From Alicyclobacillus contaminans DSM 17975 (GTDB lineage Bacteria > Bacillota > Bacilli > Alicyclobacillales > Alicyclobacillaceae), in contig NZ_AUCA01000013.1 in assembly GCF_000429525.1 (NCBI RefSeq), positions 1-64,000 on the forward strand: DNA of 64,000 nucleotides, written 5' to 3'. Both the position numbers and the translations under genes were made by a program. The notes beneath the pieces were generated by a model that did not search any database, was not told the origin of the DNA, and saw only the letters and a program-made list of their open reading frames with translations. This document shows, piece by piece, positions 20,305 to 62,083 of this stretch; the first letter of the stretch is position 1; each line of letters begins with the position of its first letter.

Positions 20305-20392
20305 ATTGCATAGATAAGGATGAACCAGAGACAGTAGGTCCAGCGATGGATAATGGGAGACCGCCTACCGAGGTTCGCGACGATAGATGGAT
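20305..20392 (+). promoter_or_regulatory. L10 leader RNA (autoregulatory)
   Basis: The sequence has the conserved L10-leader blocks ACCAGAGACAGTAGGT (20323–20338) and CCTACCGAGGTT (about 20364–20375), which pair around an internal loop. In Firmicutes, L10(L12)4 binds this RNA to control rplJL. A terminator follows, so control is likely by attenuation. The 5' end is inferred from the promoter. Confidence 0.9.
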
Positions 20393-20430
20393 ATGTCGCG
20401 CCCTCCGGTTGGAGTGGCGCGACATTTTTA
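20393..20430 (+). terminator. L10-leader attenuator terminator
   Basis: ATGTCGCGCC (20393–20402) pairs with GGCGCGACAT (20416–20425), and inner CTCC pairs with GGAG around GGTT. A TTTTT run overlaps the end. It lies between the L10 leader and rplJ. Confidence 0.92.
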
Positions 20431-20481
20431 TCGGGAAGGTTCATCCGAAGAGAATGGAAAACGGGAGGTGCGTCCACAGGC

Positions 20482-21407: not shown

Positions 21408-21426
21408 TCAAGCTTCCACACCATTG

Positions 21427-21453
21427 GGCACCCTGCGGAAGGGTGCCTTTTCT
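21427..21453 (+). terminator. Intrinsic terminator after rplL
   Basis: GGCACCCT (21427–21434) pairs with AGGGTGCC (21440–21447), followed by TTTTCT. Confidence 0.9.
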
Positions 21454-21506: not shown

Positions 21507-22112
21507 ATGGATGGGAACCACTACTATTCCACAAACCCGAGTTCAGACCGGCGCCCGGGACAGATTTCTGTACGGGTGCGCGGTGTGTCGCTGACGCTGC
21601 ACACGGACGCGGGCGTGTTCAGCCGCCGGGGGTTGGATTTCGGGACCCGGCTGTTGTTGGAAACTGTGGATCTGGATGCGGCGAGGGAGGTTGTGGACCT
21701 CGGCTGCGGCTATGGCGTGGTGGCGGCGGTGCTCGGCCGCGTGTATCCAGAGACACACTGGACATTGGTGGATGTGAATGCCCGCGCGATTGAACTGGCG
21801 GAGCAGAATACGCGGCATCTGGGGGATCGGCGTTTGGTGGTGCAGAGCGACGGATTCGCGGAACTGCCTGGGCTGATGGTCGATGCGGTGTTGCTGAATC
21901 CCCCCATCCGGGCGGGGAAAGCCGTAGTATACAGATTGTTTGAGGAAGCGAAGGCGCATTTGGTGGACGGTGGGAGTCTGTGGATTGTCATTCAGAAGAA
22001 GCAGGGGGCGCCGACAGCGCAGCGGAAGTTGGAAGAACTGTTTTCGGACGTCACCCTGGTGGAGCGCGCATCAGGCTATCACATTTTTCGCGCCGATAAA
22101 TTGCGCCCTTGA
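21507..22112 (+). CDS. ybxB: YbxB-like class I SAM-dependent methyltransferase (RsmC family)
   Basis: The 201-residue product has SAM-binding motif I VVDLGCGYGVVAAVL at about 62–76 and the nucleic-acid N6/N2-methyltransferase motif N-P-P-I-R near 132. This places it in the RsmC/RlmG-like group that methylates rRNA guanines. The target here is inferred. Position between rplL and rpoB is conserved in Bacilli. The stop overlaps the -35 of the rpoB promoter. Confidence 0.9.
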   Translation: MDGNHYYSTNPSSDRRPGQISVRVRGVSLTLHTDAGVFSRRGLDFGTRLLLETVDLDAAREVVDLGCGYGVVAAVLGRVYPETHWTLVDVNARAIELAEQNTRHLGDRRLVVQSDGFAELPGLMVDAVLLNPPIRAGKAVVYRLFEEAKAHLVDGGSLWIVIQKKQGAPTAQRKLEELFSDVTLVERASGYHIFRADKLRP

Positions 22113-22137
22113 CAGTCTTGAAGCCCTTTGATAAAGT
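22109..22137 (+). promoter_or_regulatory. Probable SigA promoter of rpoBC
   Basis: TTGACA (22109–22114) and TAAAGT (22132–22137) are 17 bases apart. It would give a leader of about 157 nt before rpoB. Confidence 0.6.
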
Positions 22138-22159
22138 TATTCAATGCAAACTCATTTGT

Positions 22160-22199
22160 AGGTGAAGGAATGAATAAAAATCCTCCACTTTGGCGATAG
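22160..22199 (+). other. Possible 9-residue leader peptide in the rpoB leader
   Basis: ATG at 22170 reads MNKNPPLWR and stops with TAG at 22197–22199. AGGTG at 22160–22164 gives a usable ribosome site. The ribosome site (22160–22169) can pair with TCCTCCACTT (22181–22190), with one mismatch and one G-U, so start access may be structure-dependent. A terminator hairpin follows 24 bases after the stop. Translation is not shown. Confidence 0.35.
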
Positions 22200-22222
22200 G
22201 TGAATAGTACTGCGTTTTCTGA

Positions 22223-22260
22223 AAATGTGGTTCCGCTGCGGCCTCATTTCTTTTTTGTTT
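22223..22260 (+). terminator. Terminator or attenuator inside the rpoB leader
   Basis: AAATG-T-GG-TT-CCG (22223–22235) pairs with CGG-CC-T-CATTT (22239–22249): ten pairs, a T·T mismatch and a TT bulge. It is followed by CTTTTTTGTTT. It lies downstream of the likely rpoB promoter and 42 bases before the rpoB start, so it must be conditional or leaky for rpoBC. Confidence 0.75.
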
Positions 22261-22301
22261 GATCCTATAGACATTTCAACTTCACATGAGGGGTGACGTA
22301 T

Positions 22302-25300
22302 TTGCAGGGACACATGGTCAAGTACGGGTGGCGTGAACGGCGCTCCTATTCGCGCATCCGCGAAGTGCTGGATCTGCCCAACCTCATTGAAATCCAGCAG
22401 AAGTCCTACGAATGGTTCCTTCGCGAAGGGCTGCGAGAGATGTTTGCAGACATTTCTCCCATTCAGGACTTCACTGGGAACCTCGTGCTGGAGTTCATTG
22501 ACTACAGCTTGGGAGAACCGAAGTACGACGTGGAGGAGTGCAAAGAGCGCGACGTTACATATGCGGCGCCGCTTCGTGTGAAAGTTCGTCTGATCAACAA
22601 GGAGACGGGCGAGGTCAAGGAACAGGAAGTGTTCATGGGAGACTTCCCGCTCATGACCGAAACGGGTACATTTGTGATCAATGGAGCGGAACGCGTCATT
22701 GTCAGCCAATTGGTCCGTTCGCCAAGTGTGTATTATAACAGCAAGATTGACAAGAATGGCAAGCGTACCTTCGCCGCCACAGTCATTCCGAACCGTGGAG
22801 CTTGGTTGGAGTTTGAAACCGACGCCAAGGATGTGGTGTACGTTCGCATAGATCGGACGCGCAAACTCCCCATCACGGTTCTTTTGCGTGCGTTGGGCCT
22901 CAGCACCGATGCGGAGATTATCAATTTGCTCGGTGAGGATGAGTACCTGCGCAATACGTTGGACAAAGACACAACCGACTCCACGGAACGCGCCCTGGTG
23001 GAGATTTACGAGCGGTTACGTCCCGGTGAACCGCCAACGTTGGAGAACGCTCGGGCGCTGTTGGCGTCGCGTTTCTTTGATCCAAAACGCTACGATCTCG
23101 CCAGTGTCGGCCGCTATAAGATCAACAAGAAGCTGCACATCAAGAACCGCCTGTTGAATCAGCGGTTGGCCGAGACGCTGGTGGACCTGGACTCCGGTGA
23201 AATCATCGCGGAGGCGGGGCAGGTCATCGACCGCCGTCTGTTGGACAAAATCATCCCGGCGTTGGAACGCAACGTCGGCCGTCTGGAGCTGAAGGCTACG
23301 CCGGAATTGACCGAAGACGAGGCGATTCGCCTGCAAATGGTGAAGATCTTCAGCCCGGTGGAGGACGGGAAGGTCATCCATGTCATCGGCAATGGATCTA
23401 TTCCACGCAACGTGAAGCATATCCTGCCTGCTGACATTCTGGCGGCAGTGAGTTATTTCTTCAACTTGCTGCACGGGGTCGGTACGACGGACGATATCGA
23501 CCATTTGGGCAACCGGCGTCTGCGTTCGGTCGGGGAACTCCTGCAGAACCAATTCCGCATCGGGCTGTCGCGGATGGAGCGGGTGGTCCGCGAGCGGATG
23601 TCGATTCAGGATGCCAGTGCCATCACGCCGCAGGCGCTCATCAACATTCGTCCGGTGATTGCGGCCATCAAAGAGTTTTTCGGATCGAGCCAGCTGTCCC
23701 AGTTCATGGATCAGACCAACCCGCTGGCGGAGTTGACGCACAAGCGGCGTCTGTCCGCGCTTGGGCCTGGCGGCTTGACCAGGGAACGCGCCGGTTTCGA
23801 AGTCCGCGACGTGCACTATTCGCACTATGGGCGGATGTGTCCGATTGAAACGCCGGAAGGTCCGAACATCGGGCTCATCAACTCGCTGTCCACGTACGCG
23901 CGGATCAACGAATACGGGTTTATTGAAACACCGTATCGCCGGGTGAATCCGGACACGGGTGAAGTGACGGATCAAATCGATTACCTGACCGCCGACGAAG
24001 AGGAAAACTACATCGTGGCACAGGCGAACGCAAAGTTGACCGAGGACAACTTCTTTGCGGAGCAGGAAGTTGTGGCGCGGTATCGCGGCGACATTCTGTC
24101 CGTGCCGCGGGAGCGGATTGACTACATGGATGTGTCGCCGAAGCAGGTCGTCTCGGTGGCGACGGCGCTGATTCCATTCCTCGAAAACGACGACGCCAAC
24201 CGCGCGCTGATGGGTTCGAACATGCAGCGCCAGGCCGTGCCGTTGCTGGTTCCGGACGCTCCTTATGTGGGCACGGGCATGGAACACCAGGCGGCCAAGG
24301 ATTCCGGGGTTTGCGTGGTGGCGAAACGCGACGGTGTGGTGGAACGCGTCACCGCTCGTGAGATTTGGGTGCGCGCCAAGCATGAAGTGGACGGCAAAGT
24401 GGTCTTGGGCGATTTGGATAAATATCACCTGCTGAAGTTTACGCGCTCCAACCAAAACACGTGCATCAACCAGCGCCCGATTGTGTCCGAGGGACAGGAG
24501 GTCAAGGCGGGCGACATCATCGCCGACGGGCCGGCAACGGACCAGGGCGAACTGGCGCTCGGACGCAACGTGCTGGTCGCGTTCATGACATGGGAAGGGT
24601 ACAACTACGAAGACGCCATCCTTCTATCCGAGAAGGTGGTGAAAGAGGACATCTACACCTCCATTCACATTGAGGAATATGAGTTGGAGGCGCGGGATAC
24701 GAAGCTCGGGCCGGAAGAAATCACTCGCGATATTCCCAACGTGGGCGAGGACGCGCTGCGCAACCTCGACGAACGCGGCATTATCCGGATTGGGGCCGAG
24801 ATCCAGGCGGGCGACATTCTGGTGGGCAAGGTGACGCCGAAGGGCGTGACCGAGCTGACCGCTGAAGAACGGTTGCTGCATGCCATCTTTGGCGAAAAGG
24901 CCCGCGAAGTGCGCGACACGTCGCTGCGGGTGCCGCACGGCGGCGCGGGCATCGTGGTGGACGTGAAGGTGTTCACCCGGGAGAATGGAGACGAGCTGCC
25001 GGCGGGTGTGAACCAACTCGTACGCGTCTACATTGCGCAGAAACGGAAGATTTCCGAAGGTGACAAGATGGCGGGCCGCCACGGAAACAAAGGTGTGGTG
25101 GCGCGGATTCTGCCGGAAGAGGATATGCCGTTCCTGGCCGATGGAACGCCCGTCCAAATTGTGTTGAATCCGTTGGGCGTGCCTTCCCGCATGAATATCG
25201 GGCAGGTGTTGGAAACCCACCTGGGCATGGCCGCCAAGGCGCTCGGAATTCGCATTGCGACGCCGGTGTTCGACGGGGCGCATGCGGAAGACGTGTTCGA

Positions 25301-25832
25301 CACACTGGAGGAAGCGGGGTTTCCGCGGGACGGAAAACAGGTGCTGTACGACGGGCGGACGGGTGAACCGTTCGACAACCGGGTCACCGTCGGATATGTG
25401 TACATGTTGAAACTGCATCACCTGGTTGACGATAAAATTCACGCTCGCTCCACCGGTCCGTACTCGCTGGTTACGCAGCAACCGCTCGGCGGTAAAGCGC
25501 AATTCGGTGGGCAACGCTTCGGTGAAATGGAAGTGTGGGCGCTCGAGGCATACGGCGCGGCATACACACTGCAGGAGATCCTCACCGTCAAGTCGGACGA
25601 TGTGGTGGGCCGCGTGAAGACGTACGAAGCCATTGTCAAGGGCGAGAACGTGCCTGAACCCGGCGTGCCGGAGTCGTTCAAGGTGTTGATTAAAGAGCTT
25701 CAAAGCCTGGGCATGGACGTCAAGATTCTCAGTGAAGATGAGCAAGAGATCATCATGCGGGAGATGGATGAAGACGAGGACGCGGGAGAGAAGCTGAACC
25801 TCAATCTGGAAGCCCACGAGGTGGGAGAGTAA
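22302..25832 (+). CDS. rpoB: RNA polymerase beta subunit
   Basis: RpoB is the beta subunit of the catalytic core. The 1176-residue product aligns by eye to B. subtilis RpoB throughout. The rifampicin-pocket segment ([10 protein letters not shown] then T-H-K-R-R-L-S-A-L) is of the sensitive type. Later motifs include [13 protein letters not shown]. Start TTG at 22302, eight bases after GAGGGG, matches the TTG start and first residues known in B. subtilis; GTG at 22293 overlaps the ribosome site. A terminator-bearing leader precedes it. Confidence 0.97.
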
Positions 25833-34589: not shown

Positions 34590-35053
<464 letters not shown>

Positions 35054-61802: not shown

Positions 61803-61935
61803 GGAACTGGTAAAGGGGGGATGCTGGCTCAGATGGAGTGGCCGTTCATTTCGCCGAAGAGATCTGATCTAACGGCGGACCATCCGGAACTTTGTCGAGT
61901 CGCGCGGCGTGAAATCTGTTCATCACAGCACGCGC
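61803..61935 (+). other. Upstream region of the glmS ribozyme, possible promoter
   Basis: This stretch holds no gene I can support. TTGTCG (61892–61897) and TCTGTT (61915–61920), 17 bases apart, could be a weak glmS promoter, giving a start near 61927 just before the ribozyme. Nothing else was recognised. Confidence 0.3.
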
Positions 61936-62083
61936 TGGAAGCGCCTGGACTGGCGTCTCGCCAGTTGACGCGGTGGAGGTTGGCGAACCATTCGGCGGAT
62001 GCCTCCCGGCTTGAGACCGAGCCGTCAAGCAACACTCGAAACCCGTTGGGCGACCGACGGAACAGGAGTTCGCAGGTCATGAG
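61936..62083 (+). promoter_or_regulatory. glmS ribozyme-riboswitch
   Basis: The core matches the glmS ribozyme: AGCGCC at 61940 onward, CTGGCG/CGCCAGTTGACG, GGTGGAGGT, CGAA, TTCGGCGGATGCCTCCCGG and the AGCCG closing strand. Cleavage is expected between A61940 and G61941. Glucosamine-6-phosphate acts as cofactor, so high product reduces glmS mRNA. The 3' boundary is approximate. Confidence 0.95.

Follow-up and report, generated by a model that had tools for sequence, protein, structure and literature searches.

Gene Context of the rpoB Leader

The window (the whole stretch of 64,000 nucleotides of Alicyclobacillus contaminans DSM 17975 analyzed here) contains rpoB behind a leader that measures 158 nt from the predicted transcription start to the rpoB start codon. 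The features discussed below are as follows.

21507-22112, methyltransferase-like gene, best NCBIfam match RsmC, below the cut-off
22109..22137, + strand, rpoB promoter TTGACA-17-TAAAGT (-35 box 22109-22114, 17 nt, -10 box 22132-22137)
22144..22151, + strand, box ATGCAAAC of the predicted transcription start, exactly 6 nt past the -10 box
22160..22190, + strand, possible pairing of AGGTGAAGGA with TCCTCCACTT into a stem at the short-frame start, from predicted folds
22170..22199, + strand, short frame ATGAATAAAAATCCTCCACTTTGGCGATAG (MNKNPPLWR*), considered non-functional as a leader peptide
22190..22206, + strand, linear motif TTGGCGATAGGTGAATA (family form TTGGnnATAGGTGAATA), from the family alignment
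22209..22231, + strand, antiterminator-like hairpin sequestering the terminator 5' arm, from the fold of the window; not general in the family
22223..22260, + strand, weak terminator-like hairpin AAATGTGGTTCCGCTGCGGCCTCATTT with a mismatch kept in the stem, then an interrupted U tract CTTTTTTGTTT
22288..22296, + strand, rpoB ribosome-binding site GAGGGGTGA
22302..25832, + strand, rpoB (TIGR02013), TTG start at 22302 chosen by eye behind the ribosome site

For comparison, rpoB was matched in 40 of 41 family genomes, and the upstream region was readable in all 40. These loci were set beside 17 loci of a sister family, 40 class loci from 33 families (out of 108 class rpoB matches outside the family) and 20 phylum loci (out of matches in 77 genomes outside the class), the class and phylum loci being picked for spread and for a strong match. 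The ranks used here (family, sister family, class and phylum) are those given by the genome search, and all counts below cover related genomes, which are not independent events. The class leader set comprised 38 of the 40 loci (L066 and L088 were left out), the sister-family alignment 15 of the 17 loci and the family alignment 20 of 29 leaders.

Promoter and Predicted Transcription Start

The promoter that had been proposed at 22109-22137 was borne out, with TTGACA, 17 nt and TAAAGT at the expected places. The methyltransferase-like frame upstream (21507-22112) ends in a TGA that falls within the -35 box, and a stop of the upstream frame inside the -35 box was found in 13 of the 40 family loci by the longest-frame method. 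In a motif-informed search, the spacer was 17 nt in 40/40 family loci, and (A/T)TGCA stood exactly 6 nt past the -10 box in 40/40. The whole string of promoter and start box had a single occurrence in the window and none across 100 shuffled sequences.

In a motif-blind promoter search, a promoter of score 8 or more was present in 113 of the 117 loci, and the best promoter before rpoB was followed at +7 by the start pattern (A/C/T)(T/C)G(C/T/G) in 105 of the 117 (family 34/40, sister family 17/17, class 35/40, phylum 19/20). The same pattern was found in only 11 of 253 shuffled sequences having a promoter (253 of 585 shuffled sequences had one of score at least 8) and after none of the window's 17 other promoter-like sites. 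The stricter pattern N6-(A/T)TGC was found in 89 of 117 loci, compared with 1 of 253 shuffled sequences. In 10 of the 12 misses, such a start followed a promoter of lower score or fell narrowly beyond the 450 nt searched; L066 and L088 remained without it. Transcription in the window is predicted to start at the ATGC box (22144).

A leaderless frame reading from the +1 ATG (MQTHL* in the window) was considered and set aside, as it does not look conserved: its length ranged from 4 to 97 codons across the 40 family loci, and in the class locus L083 it is, by eye, a start codon followed directly by a stop. Despite the unconserved frame, the +1 box may matter as RNA or as DNA.

Short Frame and Its Possible Stem

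The short frame at 22170-22199 is present and reads MNKNPPLWR, as originally predicted, and 39 of 57 family and sister-family leaders have a nine-codon frame at the corresponding position. Of these frames, 32 have ATG, GTG or TTG and no internal stop, 3 have an internal stop, and 4 have CTG as the first codon. The stem proposed around the frame start (22160-22169 with 22181-22190) can form with one A.C mismatch, as judged by eye and in agreement with the folds. Of 35 family leaders that could be anchored, 18 were predicted to form it, the window and its same-genus relative among them, a count made without a shuffle control. It was missing from the RNAalifold consensus of 26 leaders.

Both the position of the frame and the stem would suit an attenuator in which translation of MNKNPPLWR decides between stems. 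The codons of the frame, however, changed neutrally: over 50 close pairs, which overlap, 40 changes were synonymous and 179 were not (18.3%, compared with 18.2% expected without selection). In addition, the first codon is GCG in 6 family genomes, the stop has become TAC in 4 sister genomes, and the stop of the same-genus relative lies one codon earlier than that of the window frame (this survey omitted L008-L011, and L052 was mis-anchored). The ribosome site of the frame is weak and erratic, with -6.7 kcal/mol in the window, -1.4 kcal/mol in the same-genus relative and a family median of -4.9 kcal/mol (29 leaders), compared with -10.8 for rpoB and -2.7 for the background. The conserved-looking W and stop codons (TGG, TAG) are letters of the RNA motif TTGGnnATAG, and the antiterminator that such a mechanism would use is not general (see below). 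Together, the neutral codons, the losses of start and stop and the overlap of W and stop with motif letters indicate that the RNA, rather than the peptide, has been kept. The peptide is thus probably not the cause of the conservation of the control region, this part of the original prediction was dropped, and control by translation of the frame is regarded as very unlikely.

Terminator-like Hairpin

The hairpin occupies 22223-22249, directly followed by CTTTTTTG, and the rpoB TTG lies 42 nt past 22260. The terminator that had been predicted at 22223-22260 was thus found as a hairpin with a T run 42 nt before rpoB, but a weak one: its energy was -5.5 kcal/mol (z -0.55 relative to shuffles), its T run is broken by a C, and a terminator scan of the window made no call at 22223-22260. 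The U-tract interruption is present, and whether it is called distal depends on where the stem is taken to end. The leader as a whole folded no better than shuffled sequence (z 0.37; z -0.37 for 22144-22222). The folds of the leader are not beyond chance; its conservation is.

Of 59 genomes of the order, 27 carried the hairpin pattern, each as a single copy lying no more than about 320 nt before the rpoB match, while a reversed-pattern control gave 1 match in the 59 genomes. The original prediction had been staked on conservation in relatives, and this was found for the hairpin, with compensatory changes, and not for the codons of the short frame. As a regular expression, the hairpin matched 27/40 family, 11/17 sister-family, 12/38 class and 8/20 phylum leaders; in most class and phylum leaders it is therefore absent or has another sequence. 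By eye, it was recognized in 30 of 40 family loci, since the expression missed variants, for example in L050-L052 (sister family) and in L004, L031 and L041 (family). The remaining 10 family genomes all belong to one genus of 15 genomes, in which the start box and the 5' half are kept and the leader is longer and without the hairpin. In one genus (L005, L007, L012), about 160 nt of extra sequence lies between the hairpin and rpoB, and this stretch in L007 and L012 contains a further hairpin, TGGGAGACTCCACCC followed by TTTTT.

Pairing was tabulated for 56 of the 58 regular-expression matches (L090 and L109 were dropped). Pair 3 is A-U or G-C, pair 4 is U-A, U-G or C-G, pair 10 is U-A, U-G or C-G, and stem position 6 is unpaired in 47 of 56 leaders. 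Pairs are kept through changes from A-U to G-C and from U-A to C-G, which distinguish AAATG(A/T)GGTT of the window's class from AAGCGAGGTTT of other classes. In the 27 matched family hairpins, the 5' arm AAATGTGGTT is identical and the stem is closed by three A-U pairs and one U-A pair; A-U closing pairs are found throughout the window's class, one leader excepted. In the non-template strand, the element TTnTTT is present in 27/27 family, 11/11 sister-family and 10/11 class hairpins (10.3, 5.3 and 3.9 expected), and thus in 48 of 49 hairpins of the window's class (19.5 expected). The 7 hairpins kept from other classes have strong stems, poor U tracts and no TTnTTT (0/7, 2.0 expected), so that the role common to all these hairpins may be something other than termination.

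The 17 sister-family loci share the start; their 5' end forms a stem of 10 bp with AATATTTCGC, GGCAATAGAAGTATATTACGCG is their version of the linear motif, and most of them have the hairpin. In 15 of these loci, the three stems were 91.0% paired, and 5 pairs were changed on both sides; shuffles had 2.0 +/- 1.0 such pairs, and 5 of 500 shuffles attained the observed number. Two other measures were weaker, as 37 of 500 shuffles attained the covariation score and 93 of 500 the pair types. The 5' end pairs clearly with the rest of the leader in the sister family, but not uniformly so in the window's family.

A hairpin in this position might also serve as the terminator of the upstream rplJL-methyltransferase operon, preceded by the rpoB promoter by chance, since polymerases arriving from upstream must pass it. 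That reading, which the original prediction had allowed for, almost certainly fails: hairpin-bearing loci have the conserved rpoB promoter upstream of the hairpin, which in the window follows the predicted start by about 80 nt, and rplL has a strong terminator of its own at 21426-21448 (-17.6 kcal/mol, z -4.3).

Linear Motifs and Alternative Folds

After the start, most family leaders show GGACGG, ATGAATAAAA, TTGGnnATAGGTGAATA and the hairpin AAATGTGGTT..CCTCATTT in this order, and part of this layout recurs in class and phylum loci. An unbiased search of class and phylum leaders, which before trimming had landed on the terminator 3' arm and U tract, gave GG.AAaAATAg.tAa after trimming, with a log-likelihood of 93.8 compared with 41.6-52.7 in four shuffled sets (100 starts for the shuffled sets, 300 for the real set). 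The ungapped matrix of this motif gave no site above the 99% shuffle level in 40 family and 17 sister-family leaders, and it passed in only 19 of 57 of its own training leaders. A looser pattern, written after the data were seen, was found in 33/40 family (6.8 expected), 9/17 sister-family (2.2), 12/38 class (6.3) and 12/19 phylum leaders (4.6). Homology of the AATAG-type motif between the family and the class and phylum leaders is suggestive only. A possible role of the AAUAG of the leader is binding of NusA, presumably as in the mycobacterial NusA-RNA structure.

The pairing of the antiterminator-like hairpin (22209-22231) had a probability of 0.98 in the window, and exceeded 0.5 in 5 of the 27 family leaders and in none of the 11 from the sister family. 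The window RNA alone prefers this hairpin, whereas 20 of the 27 family leaders and all 11 sister-family leaders prefer the terminator fold, so that a general two-state switch is unsupported.

Linear motifs conserved without evident pairing would be expected of a leader that is bound by RNA polymerase, NusA, a ribosomal protein or a metabolite, with binding to a motif or the hairpin shifting the folding or the translation of rpoB. The strong hairpin and poor U tract of other classes point in the same direction, and CCTCAT of the hairpin 3' arm can pair, by eye, with ATGAGG at the rpoB ribosome site. The failure of the matrix trained on class and phylum leaders in the family and the sister family, however, argues against a leader of this kind, and judged from the sequences such a leader is considered unlikely.

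Relation to Known Leaders

The only relative that Rfam yielded is Lacto-rpoB (RF01709), listed for Lactobacillales (Weinberg et al. 2010, PMC2864571), reported to be expressed in E. faecium in an Enterococcus RNA map (PMC7724050) and also named in PMC6064168. By its name and by its matches here it stands in front of rpoB, as does the window leader. Among the 36 loci scanned, RF01709 (58 positions) matched the class loci L088 (70.3 bits), L087 (34.3) and L085 (30.9; gathering threshold 40), indicating that the model works here; the other 33 loci gave no match at E up to 1, and the window leader (21950-22400) none at E up to 5. The hairpin with a GAAAUAUUGUCC loop of the Lacto-rpoB alignments is, by eye, absent from 22144-22301 of the window. 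L085 and L087 carry the fixed +1 (T)TGC start, whereas L088, the sole match above gathering, is without the start box. Of the 36 loci, 20 from the order and class gave no Rfam match at E up to 1, the three Lacto-rpoB matches coming from the 16 others, and the window leader at E up to 5 gave two sub-threshold chance matches to eukaryotic families, none bearing on rpoB.

The B. subtilis rplJL leader is an L10(L12)4 attenuator (Yakhnin et al. 2015, PMC4538822), and thus an attenuation leader of the same gene cluster. The corresponding L10 leader (RF00557) was matched in the window at 20307-20438 with 44.8 bits, barely over the gathering threshold of 44. It is a different element, lying about 1.7 kb upstream of the rpoB leader, and RF00557 gave no match to the rpoB leader itself.

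In the description of Mandell et al. 2021 (PMC8060035), the NusG-dependent terminators of B. subtilis combine TTnTTT and an interrupted U tract with a weak hairpin that ends in A-U or G-U pairs. The rpoB leader resembles them in its weak stem, A-U closing pairs, interrupted U tract and TTnTTT, and "rpoB" does not occur in the main text of that paper (PMC8060035). A search for literature on rpoB leader attenuation found no description of this leader; most subscription papers lay outside the search, and absence from print is not established. Older work reportedly mapped the B. subtilis rpoB region.

Proposed Function of the Leader

The rpoB leader is a conserved element with an attenuator-like layout. 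The layout had originally been proposed with a leader peptide; promoter, leader and hairpin are kept in both the family and its sister family, as well as in part of the class, and the peptide falls away. That this element regulates rpoBC is what we infer. We consider it somewhat more probable than an even chance that the leader contains a weak, factor-dependent terminator which sets rpoBC output. RNA polymerase would start at the fixed box, ATGC in the window, 7 nt past the -10 box, transcribe about 80 nt holding the conserved single-stranded motif, and then meet the weak hairpin, whose built-in stem defect, A-U closing pairs and interrupted U tract would stop a fraction of the polymerases. 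As the hairpin is weak, this fraction should depend on elongation factors, namely on NusG, reading TTnTTT, and on NusA. By analogy with the B. subtilis terminators, dependence of the rpoB leader terminator on Nus factors is probable, and the state of the transcription machinery would then determine rpoBC output, a feedback that we likewise infer. These bacteria may thus tune the amount of RNA polymerase at the rpoB leader. The fixed +1 box has no account in a mechanism of weak terminator and Nus factors.

The weak hairpin and broken U tract would equally predict steady readthrough, as expected of a constitutive, unregulated partial terminator that only lowers rpoBC output by a fixed amount, and 10 of 15 genomes of one genus manage without the hairpin. 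The identity of the 5' arm AAATGTGGTT among the 27 family hairpins and the conserved motifs upstream of it, however, exceed what such a device would need, and we regard it as a minor possibility.

Returning to the factor-dependent terminator, a broader and tentative proposal, to which we give a rather low probability, is that one ancestral rpoB leader, combining a fixed AUGC-type start with a weak hairpin and a single-stranded motif of the AAUAG type, extends across much of the phylum as an autogenous sensor, in which polymerase and Nus factors would set the amount of beta and beta', Lacto-rpoB being the one branch described so far. The rpoB leader may in this way give the isolated Lacto-rpoB family a broader context. 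To our knowledge, the control of the amount of core RNA polymerase in these bacteria is poorly understood. Should the hairpin respond to Nus factors, the supply of polymerase would be coupled to how the elongation machinery stands, and the fixed start box and, in the window's family, the single-copy weak conserved terminator make the leader a defined element for deletion tests.

Two loci of a genus outside the class (L112, L113) have a leader of about 48 nt, made up of the start box ATGCCAT, AAAAAATAGCGAG and the rpoB ribosome site, without a hairpin. Elsewhere in the window, an S10-Clostridia ribosomal protein leader (RF03136) was matched at 34635-34728 (42.3 bits, gathering threshold 35.1), despite the placing of the genome in the Alicyclobacillaceae, and a glmS ribozyme (RF00234) at 61929-62083 (74.8 bits).
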